47,573 nucleotides of DNA, from positions 2,232,987-2,280,559 of the forward strand of contig CP070691.1 of NCBI GenBank assembly GCA_020353195.1, given 5' to 3'. This document shows positions 30,045-36,259 of this stretch, piece after piece; position 1 is the first letter of the stretch, and each line of letters opens with the position of its first letter. The position numbers were made by a program, and so were the translations under genes. This DNA comes from Phycisphaerales bacterium (GTDB lineage Bacteria; Planctomycetota; Phycisphaerae; UBA1845). The notes under the pieces are model-generated. The model saw only the letters and a list, made by a program, of their open reading frames with translations. It did not search any database and was not told the DNA's origin.

Positions 30045-32285
30045 CTACCGCGGCCCGGTGAAGACGTTCTGGAACAAGCCGAAGTCGCCCAGATCGATGT
30101 CATCATCTCCGTCCAGATCGCCGTGTTCGCAGCCCCCGAAACCTGGCACGCCAGGGCCAGCCAGGCACGTTTCCCACAATGCGTAGTCCTCCAGGTCCAC
30201 ATCGCCGTCAAAATCAAAATCGCCGTCGCCGACGGACGGGTAGACCAGCGGGGCCTCAAACGCCGCGTACGCGACACGCTCGGCCGTATGCCGACGCTCC
30301 GTATCTCCAAGCTGATCTTCGTCGAGCGAAAGGTTCAGCGCCGCGGCGGTAGCGAGCGTCGGGCCGTACGCCTGGGCCCACGACCCGTCGGCTCCGATCA
30401 TCCCCGCCTGGCTCAGGATAGCCACGGTCGGGGCGCTGGCGAAGCCGATGTCGAAGGGATACGGGTATGGCGGTGTGTTGTCGACGCCCTGGACGGTAGC
30501 GTCGCCCACACGGGCCTCGAACTCCACGCCACCTATCGTGGAGTGACCGGCTTCGATCACGACGACGCCGATTGTCTCTGGCGCGCGGGTCACGTCGAGA
30601 TCCGAGCCCACGTGCTTGCCGATGCGCAGGAGCGTCGGGCTCGGGGGATCGCCGGCGGTCGCCCCCTGACACCAGAACACCGACCAGTCAGAATCGTTCT
30701 CGCTCATCACCTGCCCCAGCACGACGGGGTTGACGTGGCTTCGGTGGTAGCGCCGCAGTTCGCCGACCCAACTGAGATTGAGGTCGACGACGGTCGAGGT
30801 GTAGGTCCAGGCCTCGAACTCCACGCCGTCAATCGTGCTCACACCTTCCTCGATCACCAGGTAGCTGACATTGTCGGTCGTCACGGGGTCGCCGCACGGA
30901 TTCTGAAGGCGCACGTCAAAGCTGCTGGCAGTGACGTTGCTGACGCGGGAAACGACGGGCAGGGTGTTGTTGTCGTACTGCACCGAGCACACGACAATGG
31001 GGCTGTCGTAGCTGTTCTCCAGGGTCACGGTGACGGCGGAATCACCCACCGCAACGACGCCGCACTCGAGGCGGGGCTCGACCTCGCAGGAGTCGGGGAC
31101 GCCGTTGAAGTTGAGGTCCAGACCCGGATCGACGGCGATCTCGCAATTGTCGGGAACGGCGTTGCCGTTGCAGTCCGGACTGTCGCATTCGTCGGGAATG
31201 AGATTGGCGTTGCAGTCGTTTCCGCTGATCTGGCACTCATCGGGCACGATGTCGCCGTTACAGTCCGGGCTGGTTCCCTCGGCGACATCGCAGTCATCGG
31301 GGACGGAGTTGCCGTTGCAGTCCGGCTCGCAATCGTCGGGAACGCCGTTCGCGTTACAGTCGTTTCCGTCGAGCTGGCATTCGTCGGGCACGACATCACC
31401 GTTGCAATCTTCGCTTGTTCCGTCGGCGACATCGCATTCGTCAGGCACGAGGTTGCCGTTGCAATCCTGGCTGGTGCCGCCGGAAATGTCCTGATCATCA
31501 GGGACGCCATTGCCGTTGCAGTCGACGATGACGAAGGGCCAGGTCATGATCGCGGCCTGGAACACTTCGGCCCGGTTCGAAAGGGGGCTGGTGTCCTGTG
31601 GCTCCTGCGCCCAGGCGATGATCTTGATATCTTCCCGGTTCGCCCAACTCGTGGCGTCAAACGTGAAATCTCTCTCGATCGTCTGGCATTGTCCGGGGGA
31701 CAGCGCGATGTCCTGCGTCGATGCGGCCTGCTTGAACCCGTTGCGCGAATAATCAGGTGGAATGGGCCAGTAGTCCAAGACGTGAACCATGTAGATGCGT
31801 AGGTTCTTGCCGATTCCTTCCGGTTCCAGGCACACCGCTGCTTGCACACGATAGGTCCACATACCAAGCCAGTCACCGACGAGTTTGATCGTGACGTCAG
31901 TGGGCACAGCGCGCCGAGCCAGGTAATCGTTCCAATAGACCATGTAGCTCGAGGACCCTCCCCGCCGGATCGTGCCGTCGAAATACGACGTGGGGTACCC
32001 CCCGAAATCGGTGTAGAAGTCTGCCCGGGCGTTTCCCCAGAGCGTAGCGTAGCTGTCACCATGGTGAATCTGGACGAAGGCGAACGTATCCGGGTAGATA
32101 TCCATCAACTGGCTGAACGCGGGACCCGCGCTTGCGCAACCCGGTCACCACATCGCCGTGAATTCCTCGCACAGAACCACCCGTTCCGCCGCCAGGGTGG
32201 TCTGAGGAACGGCTCCGACCACAAGGGCGGCTACCGCCCACCCGAATCGGATGCTGGTACCGGCAGTGGAACGAAGCTCGTTCAT
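30045..32285 (-). CDS. Selenoprotein: thioredoxin-like (Omp28-type) domain, calcium-binding repeats and dockerin
   Basis: The full product is 746 residues if UGA 32147-32145 is read as selenocysteine. ATG 32285 has AAGGAGGT 5 bases before it. A signal peptide (GWAVAALVVGAVPQTTLAA) is followed by VVLCEEFTAMW, UGA and PGCASAGPAFSQLMDIYPDT, so Sec47 and Cys50 form a UxxC redox site where relatives have WCxxC. The fold continues with FAFVQIHHGDSYATLWGNAR and GGYPTSYFDG. Nine DCNGNGVPD-type repeats, two beta domains with VEFEA motifs, and a C-terminal dockerin pair (GDFDFDGDVDLEDYALWETC, GDLDGDDDIDLGDFGLFQ) follow. The protein is probably a secreted thiol or selenol oxidoreductase anchored at the surface. 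Annotation pipelines would split it in two; without Sec decoding only a 46-residue stub would be made. Confidence 0.8.
31083..31527 (-). repeat. Nine tandem DCNGNGVPD-type calcium-binding repeats
   Basis: Within the selenoprotein gene nine units follow the pattern DCNGNxVPDxCD with spacers such as VADGTSE, QLDGN and SP. Examples are DCNGNGVPDDQD, DCNGNLVPDECD, DCNANGVPDDCE and DLNFNGVPDSCE. The pattern resembles thrombospondin type 3 repeats, where Asp and Asn ligate calcium and Cys pairs stiffen the rod. The DNA repeats closely enough (GTTGCAGTC and variants) to allow copy-number change. Confidence 0.85.
32110..32147 (-). promoter_or_regulatory. Putative bacterial SECIS element after in-frame UGA
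   Basis: Counting from the base after UGA (+1 = 32144), bases +13 to +29 (32132-32116) fold as AGCGCGGGUCCCGCGUU. This gives a stem of about 6-7 bp with apical GGUC at +19 to +22 (32126-32123). A lower stem can form between GGUU (+4 to +7) and AGCC (+31 to +34). As I recall it, the E. coli fdhF SECIS has GGUC in its apical loop at the same distance from UGA. The bulged U of fdhF is not conserved here (G at +14). Confidence 0.65.
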
Positions 32286-33086
32286 CCCTAACCTCCTTGT
32301 GACACGAGAACCACGTACATGACGAACAGCCGTTTCCCGATCGAGAAGCCGCCACGTCGCGCCCCCGCCGTCGCTAGCGGACACTCCAACCGCACACACA
32401 TCCCCGTCACCATTGGCCAGGCCGTATTAGATGTCCACCAACCTGAAACCTCCGGTCCGTTGGCTGGCCGTCACGCTGCTGACCACCTGTGCCGAGTTGG
32501 CCCGCGCGGTCCCGGCCGCCGTGAAGATCGAGCCCGCCACTACCTCGAGTCCCCGCACGATCGCTCTAGTGGTCGCAATACCTCGCTTCCACCAAATGTC
32601 TCGACCGGCTTGGCGACCCGGTGGCCGCGGTCTGCCCATTACATCATTCAACTGCCCCGCATCGACAGCCGTGCATCGGACCACCTGTCGCCCACAGTAG
32701 TCGTACGAAGCTCATGACGAGAGGCGATCCGCTGAGCGTCCCGCTCTCCTGTCAACTCATGCCTTGGATGTGTGACTTCATCGTATGAAAACGGATCTCT
32801 TCATGCAATGGAGAAATGAACGCATGGACGGGCGATTGTGGCATCCCGCACTATTGGTGAAGTAAGACTGCATGGATGACCTTCGGGTTTTCCCCAATAC
32901 GCTCCCCAAGGTGAGGGGGCTTGACGTCGCATGTTTCCAGTGGCTCACAGGTCGTCCGTTCGGCGAGGTGCTGTACATGGCCGACACACGCGACGACGCT
33001 CCTCGATGGGACCAGGAGTACTACGGCATCGGCGCGCCAAGGTGGAAGACTAAGCACGGCAATCGATAGCGGCATCGATCCCTGCG
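32286..33086. other. Gap of about 800 bases upstream of the selenoprotein gene
   Basis: Apart from a short ORF at 32872-33069, no gene is convincing here. Several overlapping ORFs on both strands at 32319-32717 have low-complexity Arg/Pro/Thr translations and are probably not expressed. The selenoprotein promoter should lie just above 32285, but no clear element was found. Confidence 0.4.
32872..33069 (+). CDS. Small hypothetical protein
   Basis: A 65-codon ORF starts at ATG 32872 (MDDLRVFPNTLPKVRGLDVA) and ends in APRWKTKHGNR. Segments such as CFQWLTGRPFGEVLYMADTR and WDQEYYGIG are aromatic and of protein-like composition, but there is no good ribosome site and no recognised domain. It could be a small gene or a fragment of a lost one. 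Confidence 0.3.
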   Translation: MDDLRVFPNTLPKVRGLDVACFQWLTGRPFGEVLYMADTRDDAPRWDQEYYGIGAPRWKTKHGNR

Positions 33087-34747: not shown

Positions 34748-36259
34748 ATGGGAAAGAAGCAGGTCGTTTATTGGATTGCGGTCGTCGCGGTCGCTCTCAG
34801 CGCCGCGCCCCTGGCCGCCGACATCGCCGACGACCAGGTCCTGGTCGTGTACAATTCCGCGTCGCCCGAGGCCGTCACTCTCAAAAACACCTACCTGTCG
34901 GCGCATCCGGGCATACCCGCCGCGAATCTGCTGGACCTGAATGACGCCTCTCTGTTGCTCGCGAACATCACCCAGGCGGCATTCGTCACCAAGGTCCGCG
35001 ACCCGATTCGGGCTTACCTCGCGGCTGCCGGCGATCCCCAGCCCAGCGACATCATCGTCATACTCTTGCTGCGCCCCTTCCCTCATCGCATGTACGACAC
35101 CGACGCTCCGCTCGTCGGCGACAGCCCCAGCAACGCCGCCAACGAGGTCTATCCGGGTGGAGACGCCACCTATGCCTCCGTCGACGCGGAACTGGTGCTG
35201 CTCTGGCAAAACCTGAACACTGGCGAGGCCGGTGGGATGATGGACAGCAAATCCGACAACATGATCGACAATCCCTACCACCAGAGCACGGCATCGATCG
35301 ATGCGTTCAGCCGCGCGTGGATCACCACGGCTAAGACCTTTACCAACCGGTCAAATGTCGTCTGGGTTCTCGGTGGCGCCGGCTCGACTCGCCTGCAGCC
35401 GGGAGACATGTATCTTGTCTGCCGTATCGACGGAACGACACTTGCGGACGCCCAGGCCGAAATCCAGCGAGCTCAGGGGATCCGAGCCAACCGCGGCGCC
35501 GTTCGCGTCGTCCTGGATGAATACGATCTGAATATCGCCGGCGACCTGGACGATGATCCGCTCTTCACGACCGGCGACCCGTTCCTGGCCGGCGACGACT
35601 ATGAGGAAACCGACGCCCTGCTAACGGCGGCGGGCTGGGACGTCCGCTACGATGACACGTTCAACTTCATCTCCGGCGACGAAGAGACCACCCCGCTGAT
35701 CGCGTACGCCTCGTACGGTGAGAACCACGACCTCAACGGAGCAGGTGAGAATCCGCCTGGCACCGCAGTCTACATTAACTCGTTTACCTTCGCCCAAGGC
35801 GCGATCTTCAACACCGTCGAGTCATACAATGCCCGAGCGTTCAACGGGCTCGGTACGCTGTTCGGTCTCGAGCAGTCCGCCGATTTCATCACGGCGGGAG
35901 GGACCTTCGCTGTGGGGCACGTTTTCGAGCCGTTCACCTTCACGCTTGCGGACAACGAGTTCCTGTTTTCGAACATGCTCATCCACGGCCGGCAGTGGGC
36001 TGAGGCCGCCTACGCTTCCATTCCCGCGCTGAGCTGGCAACACGTGGTCGTCGGTGACCCGCTCGCACGCATCCACTTGCTCGGCGATCTCGACTTCGAC
36101 CGGGACGTGGATCTCGGAGACTACGCGCTGTGGGAGACCTGCTTGGCCGGACCGGACGTCCCGAGCGCGGGCGGCTGCCAGGAGGGCGATTTCGACGGCG
36201 ACGACGATGTGGATCTGGGCGACTTCGCTCAGTTTCAGACTGCGTTCACTGGTGGATAG
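34748..36259 (+). CDS. TIGR03790 family exported protein with dockerin
   Basis: The 503-residue protein begins with a signal peptide (MGKKQVVYWIAVVAVALSAA). TIGR03790-type motifs follow: DQVLVVYNSASPEAVTLKNT with YLSAHPGIPAANLLDL, a domain of predicted strands (IIVILLLRPFPHRMY), VWVLGGAGSTRLQPGDMY, LIAYASYGENHDLNG and the family end-motif ASIPALSWQHVVVGDPLARI. Caspase-like or surface roles have been suggested for related folds, but no activity is established. The last 60 residues form a dockerin pair (GDLDFDRDVDLGDYALWETC, GDFDGDDDVDLGDFAQFQ), nearly the same as in the selenoprotein at 30045. GTGGGAAG lies just before the ATG. Confidence 0.85.
   Translation: MGKKQVVYWIAVVAVALSAAPLAADIADDQVLVVYNSASPEAVTLKNTYLSAHPGIPAANLLDLNDASLLLANITQAAFVTKVRDPIRAYLAAAGDPQPSDIIVILLLRPFPHRMYDTDAPLVGDSPSNAANEVYPGGDATYASVDAELVLLWQNLNTGEAGGMMDSKSDNMIDNPYHQSTASIDAFSRAWITTAKTFTNRSNVVWVLGGAGSTRLQPGDMYLVCRIDGTTLADAQAEIQRAQGIRANRGAVRVVLDEYDLNIAGDLDDDPLFTTGDPFLAGDDYEETDALLTAAGWDVRYDDTFNFISGDEETTPLIAYASYGENHDLNGAGENPPGTAVYINSFTFAQGAIFNTVESYNARAFNGLGTLFGLEQSADFITAGGTFAVGHVFEPFTFTLADNEFLFSNMLIHGRQWAEAAYASIPALSWQHVVVGDPLARIHLLGDLDFDRDVDLGDYALWETCLAGPDVPSAGGCQEGDFDGDDDVDLGDFAQFQTAFTGG

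Follow-up and report, generated by a model that had tools for sequence, protein, structure and literature searches.

The gene studied here lies in a 47,573-nucleotide stretch of the genome of a Phycisphaerales bacterium (contig CP070691.1, positions 2,232,987 to 2,280,559), hereafter the window. A long minus-strand reading frame at 30045-32285, apparently encoding a secreted thioredoxin-like protein, contains a single TGA, and the question is whether this codon ends a gene or is read as selenocysteine (Sec, U). Our analysis argues strongly for the latter: the UGA stands at the site of a catalytic cysteine and is very probably read as Sec by means of the genome's own selA, selB, selC and selD, which would yield a predicted exported thiol-disulfide oxidoreductase of the UxxC type.

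The frame runs from an ATG at 32285 to a TAG at 30047-30045 and counts 747 codons, the 47th of which is the TGA (32147-32145); 699 open codons lie between TGA and TAG, and read-through gives 746 residues. As stated in a preliminary description made from the sequence alone, this one UGA separates two open reading frames (ORFs) of the same frame, a ribosome-binding sequence lies upstream, and the UGA takes the first position of a W-x-P-G-C motif, i.e. W-U-P-G-C once read as Sec. The ribosome-binding sequence is AAGGAGG (32298-32292), 6 nt ahead of the ATG. The other five frames of the stretch contain 16 to 26 stops in four cases and 1 in the antisense frame in codon register. In this register a 559-codon antisense frame is open over the repeats of the gene (30123-31802, plus strand), most likely as a by-product of the gene's high G+C third positions. 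Compared with a second copy of the gene in the genome (L033), dN and dS are 0.09 and 0.72 upstream of the TGA, over a short stretch of 15 codons, and 0.11 and 0.33 downstream, over 204 codons. The lower dN than dS before and after the TGA indicates that this codon is not a chance stop.

The window's genome, a 3.79-Mb single contig scored 78% complete, encodes selB, selA (matched after a gap of 32 bp), tRNA-Sec(UCA) and two selD, all over the cut-off, so that the four genes for which the preliminary description advised a search are all present. The tRNA-Sec gene (selC), a 69.6-bit hit of RF01852, is located elsewhere in the genome, and ARAGORN finds no tRNA within the window; a scan of the window with Rfam likewise gave no match at the gathering score. 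Other RF01852 hits over the cut-off are tRNA-Ser and tRNA-Leu, and were rejected as tRNA-Sec. One selD (L027, C1:2970282-2971205, minus strand) has an in-frame TGA within SCAGUAGK and, from its sequence, likely encodes a Sec-containing selenophosphate synthetase; the other, at C1:1287468, is free of TGA. With the profile NF045500, and then with a profile of our own, four genes of this genome were found to have one TGA at the same column: the window gene, its L033 copy (79% identical to the window protein over the whole length, 746 columns), a short gene on the plus strand of L032, and L032:6793-9375 on the minus strand (C1:3112996-3113658), which adds thrombospondin-3 repeats and nine CxxCH haem motifs.

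As the NF045500 probe mostly hit the later, repeat-bearing part of its model, the class was searched with our own profile (A2), built from the thioredoxin/immunoglobulin-like (Ig-like) domain alone. Among 298 class genomes, 24 matched, with 48 hits. The codon at the site is TGA in 22, TGC in 22 and TGT in 2 of 46 hits, the two others (G216:C363, which falls short of the site, and G252:C122) being kept outside all counts. Named genomes were also scanned, yielding 27 loci and 37 domain hits (26 TGA, 9 Cys, 1 Tyr, 1 Gly) from Phycisphaerae, Phycisphaerales, Planctomycetota, Acidobacteria, Thermoanaerobaculales, Holophagae and entries named only ‘bacterium’. Once L131 (one of the 9 Cys rows, and the same gene as L075) and two duplicates were removed, 80 distinct relatives remained, with UGA at the catalytic column in 47, Cys in 31 and neither in 2; Cys thus aligns with the UGA, as the Sec interpretation had anticipated. 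In L075/L131 the order is reversed to C-x-x-U, TGC coming first and TGA three codons later, so that the column assignment there depends on the alignment. At the second Cys of UxxC, L099 and L102 have Asp, and L103 has a Cys one residue later. The hit L040 (genome G021) contains a TGA, its catalytic codon being TGC.

Parsimony on a 71-row tree requires 10 Sec/Cys changes, 4 of them forced by well-supported branches; the tree was made by a quick method with the trait column masked, has many open forks and gives no direction of change. A pair of loci in genome G233, L104 (TGC) and L106 (TGA), both at contig ends, are near-identical over the site and share the same hairpin codons, as expected of a recent exchange, or else of two strains. 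In a phylum-wide search, 29 of 392 genomes matched at E ≤ 1e-10, with UGA copies only in the window's own genome; that listing includes no other genome of the same order and is no measure of frequency.

The distribution of selA was surveyed over the same 298 class genomes and over 20 genomes reached from the named loci, at least three of which appear to overlap the class set (relatedness is uncorrected). It is over the cut-off in 104 of the 298, in 10 of the 11 with UGA copies (the exception, G272, is an 87%-complete draft with selB) and in 6 of the 13 with Cys copies only, where G251 has fragments below the cut-off and six show none. Nineteen of the 20 genomes from named loci have selA and/or selB over the cut-off: selB is below it or absent in G304, G305, G309 and G312, and selA in G298, G301 and G311, none being without both. 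The twentieth, G317, has neither gene and only Cys.

The published rule for a bacterial Sec insertion sequence (SECIS) asks for a loop of 3-9 nt with G in the first two positions, a stem of 4-16 bp, a distance of 16-37 nt from the UGA and a minimum free energy ≤ -7.5, as set out in PMC13188914. Near 32110-32147, where the preliminary description suggested looking, the hairpin listed in table 1 agrees with this rule, with a loop GUC, a 7-bp stem, a position 19 nt after the UGA and -9.6 kcal/mol when folded alone; the 42 nt downstream of the UGA fold at -15.0 kcal/mol. The rule is passed by 41/47 UGA genes and 11/31 Cys genes, and by 6/46 when the frame is moved 45 nt. Against synonymous shuffles, energies are lower in the UGA group (mean -13.1 versus -9.5, p 2.2e-5) but not in the Cys group (p 0.63). 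Since few genes are significant alone, the case for a SECIS rests on the group and on a fixed-position pairing test, which was added because the free-form score is noisy.

In this test, all four core pairs, in one of two registers, are present in 38/41 UGA genes with Gly at codon 7 versus 2/16 Cys genes. Of these 41 UGA genes, 28 have G-C and 8 have C-G at one pair of third-codon positions, and 33 have C-G and 4 have G-C at another such pair; the observed pairing (0.89, versus a shuffle mean of 0.76) was reached by none of 1000 column shuffles. Accordingly, the hairpin stem is kept across UGA genes through paired changes at third-codon positions. The loop glycine is encoded by GGU in 37/40 UGA genes versus 3/20 Cys genes (7 UGA and 11 Cys genes have no loop glycine and are outside this count), and GGU serves for 22/110 glycines further downstream in UGA genes. 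Of the three Cys genes with GGU, two lie in L124 and one is L104.

Several observations weigh against the reading of the UGA as Sec. Taken alone, the hairpin of the window gene is unexceptional, 15 of 100 synonymous shuffles being as good, and no more than 5 of 100 shuffles equal the native sequence in only 2/47 UGA genes and 3/31 Cys genes; 6/47 UGA genes fail the SECIS rule as coded, 3 of them without any hairpin. Two relatives have neither Cys nor Sec (Tyr in L119, Gly in L124, minus strand) and are perhaps non-redox, and three UGA genes (L075, L099 and L102) have no Cys three residues after Sec. Moreover, selA occurs commonly in the order of the window's genome in any case, and the cross-gene tests take no account of relatedness.

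Were the UGA a true stop, a shorter protein would start at a downstream TTG or ATG. Indeed, a TTG is available, and the protein collection entry for the gene (P0121, 686 residues) begins after the TGA. Such a product would however be without signal peptide and active site, yet dN is below dS in the 15 codons upstream; among the best 40 of 190 collection matches, 28 begin after the site likewise, 11 span it and have Cys, and 1 is unclear; and UGA is found repeatedly at this single column, in genomes that have selA or selB. We thus regard a true stop as improbable. Still less credit can be given to a sequencing error or a recent nonsense mutation of a TGC or TGT codon, from either of which TGA is one base away: the assembly is a single contig scored incomplete, but TGA occupies the column in 47 of the 80 relatives, from many assemblies, and in all four copies of the genome itself. 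Low-level read-through of UGA is known in general, and a near-cognate tRNA or a reassigned code might insert Trp, Gly or another residue. This is just as hard to credit: of 18 selected long ORFs of the window (not all of them proven genes), 10 end in TGA, which shows that the code is not reassigned, and none of the 33 relatives without UGA has Trp at the column, 31 having Cys, besides the covariation of the hairpin. The machinery genes, the Cys alignment and the SECIS-like hairpin together support the selenoprotein interpretation, the features of which are collected in table 1.

Table 1. Features of the predicted selenoprotein gene, in window coordinates.
Feature	Position	Strand	Basis
Recoded reading frame, 746 residues, UGA as Sec	30045..32285	-	single TGA, stop TAG
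Ribosome-binding site AAGGAGG	32292..32298	-	sequence
Signal peptide, about 32 residues	32187..32285	-	by eye: positive start, hydrophobic core, small residues at end
UGA codon, predicted Sec residue 47, first of U-P-G-C	32145..32147	-	UGA/Cys column; aligned to HBP35 Cys48
Cys50, expected resolving cysteine of UxxC	32136..32138	-	column nearly invariant (90% or more) in alignment A3
Predicted bacterial SECIS hairpin, 7-bp upper stem, 3-nt loop GUC	32112..32135	-	fold, covariation, codon signature
Thioredoxin-fold domain, from AAERVVL	31902..32192	-	model; structure match
Ig-like sandwich, Omp28/HBP35 type	31533..31901	-	
DCNGNGxPDECD repeats, possibly calcium-binding	31119..31532	-	8 repeats by text pattern
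H-type-lectin-like module, also in other secreted proteins	30243..31118	-	weak
Dockerin-like double EF-hand tail	30048..30242	-	Dockerin_1 21.3 bits, cut-off 22.9

The N-terminal model, of high confidence, matches HBP35 (5y1a) over its whole length, comprising thioredoxin and Ig-like domains, and the UGA residue is aligned on the catalytic Cys48 of HBP35. Thioredoxin PF00085 scores 17.5 bits, under its cut-off of 23.5, although the thioredoxin fold is met in structure. From these elements a course of events can be proposed, in which the hairpin would recruit SelB and Sec-tRNA to the UGA, the signal peptide would direct export of the 746-residue chain, the Sec, N-terminal in U-P-G-C, would attack a disulfide or oxidised thiol, and the mixed selenide-sulfide would be resolved by Cys50; the enzyme would probably be held at a surface or matrix by its lectin-like and dockerin-like tail. 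Sec often serves peroxide chemistry, and the selenoprotein might instead be chiefly a peroxidase or a haem- or metalloid-binding surface protein. HBP35, a surface protein of Porphyromonas gingivalis with assayed thioredoxin activity, is also described as binding haem (PMC2907840). Nevertheless, that assay and the UxxC motif with its second Cys favour thiol-disulfide exchange, so that we consider such a role unlikely, if far from negligible.

The remainder of the protein had been read as calcium-binding repeats followed by a dockerin. The repeats do exist, but no Pfam calcium-binding repeat matches them, and calcium binding is therefore only presumed; a Pfam match to Cornifin was set aside as an effect of composition. 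The tail does resemble a double EF-hand, with a Dockerin_1 (PF00404) score that stays under the cut-off (27.9 bits in relative L123). The genome gave no match to Cohesin PF00963 at E ≤ 0.1, the only cohesin family searched; the cellulosome reading was thus dropped, the tail being unlikely to build one. A protein of 503 residues near the gene (34748-36259, plus strand) looks secreted and has a similar dockerin-like tail.

Between repeats and tail, a lectin-like region had been overlooked. It scores 13.7 bits with H_lectin PF09458 (cut-off 24), versus 35.5 and 27.6 in the module relatives P0123 and P0126. The model of this C-terminal module (pLDDT 93.2) weakly resembles Helix agglutinins and SLL-2, which we take to be an H-type lectin (Foldseek E 0.02-0.16, 0.10-0.16 for the Helix agglutinins; probability 0.98-1.00); ranked by E-value, the first match is a phage receptor-binding complex that looks unrelated, and no match was obtained at E ≤ 0.001. 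On the contig of the window, the module is also present in the copy (P0135), in P0136 (weak BNR-repeat matches) and in a matrixin-type peptidase (P0142), and it occurs in many proteins elsewhere (289 matches at E ≤ 0.001). Judging from these sequences, tail cassettes appear to move between secreted proteins. Directly upstream of the copy, a protease-like gene (L033:561-3824, plus strand; TSAHC, by eye) likewise combines these repeats with the lectin-like module and the dockerin-like tail.

Other relatives carry different modules. Nine CxxCH motifs lie in the same chain in eight UGA rows and five Cys rows, L121, L122, L125, L127 and L128 being among them, and two further UGA rows, clipped by contig or stretch ends, have five and three. 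Pfam Cytochrome_C554 matches the own-genome copy with nine haem motifs at 2.5e-17, and L121 and L122 at 7.6e-17 and 2.9e-17; the UGA gene L116 has FG-GAP repeats. The nine-CxxCH rows lead us to a bolder and more tentative possibility, that Phycisphaerae and Acidobacteria have a large and so far unrecognised branch of secreted selenoenzymes, where one catalytic Sec-thioredoxin/Ig unit is set on exchangeable lectin, dockerin, FG-GAP or nine-haem surface modules. The cytochrome form might then feed electrons from respiration outside the cell straight to Sec, as a wired extracellular thioredoxin, with the window protein as its sugar-anchored partner.

The preliminary description presented the combination of Sec, repeats and dockerin as one not seen described before, and we found none in the literature searched. 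Within the same limits, the lectin-/dockerin-like architecture, the nine-haem-cytochrome branch, the Acidobacterial members and the about ten Sec/Cys exchanges seem to be new. A branch of predicted exported selenoproteins is thereby added in two little-studied groups, where the curated profile misses it at its cut-off and gene callers truncate its members, dropping signal peptide and active site. With Sec placed outside the cell, in a thioredoxin linked to a lectin or a cytochrome, one may ask, in a testable way, how a protein of this sort would be reduced in that location. The Sec/Cys pairs, with their third-codon covariation, offer clean natural material on which the rules for bacterial SECIS elements can be examined.

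The preliminary description also proposed a new selenoprotein; the selenoprotein stands, given the sel genes, the UGA/Cys column and the hairpin, but its kind is not new. GOS_C, known since 2008 from 74 Sec and 312 Cys ocean-sample sequences reported with a Trx-like fold and UxxC (Zhang and Gladyshev 2008, PMC2398784), shares with it the thioredoxin-like fold, UxxC, Sec/Cys exchange and a bacterial SECIS, and Table 1 of PMC13188914 lists a GOS_C/Omp28-related selenoprotein under NF045500. Residues 32-290 of the window protein align to positions 36-313 of the 377 of this model, the later part of which matches, by position, repeat-bearing proteins. The window protein nevertheless reaches 26.2 bits where the cut-off is 200, scores for the four copies of its genome range from 20 to 106 bits, and none of the 298 class genomes has a match over the cut-off; by sequence, this branch of a known kind thus falls far below the NF045500 threshold. 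The Ig-like domain matches 2r2c of the Omp28 family (PF11551). Many of the more distant profile matches bear PF11551 (rank 41 onward, among the best 120 of 190); it gave no match in the window protein at E ≤ 1, and none in the 40 nearest proteins. HBP35 differs by a Cys where the window protein has UGA, by an identity of 14% and by another C-terminal domain, for which surface attachment is proposed in PMC2907840. Finally, ExtKL of PMC13188914 Table 1 is, like the L018 relatives, a selenoprotein with a multihaem cytochrome; it is listed in that table without a Sec motif, whereas in the relatives described here a UxxC thioredoxin domain is joined with a stretch of nine haem motifs.
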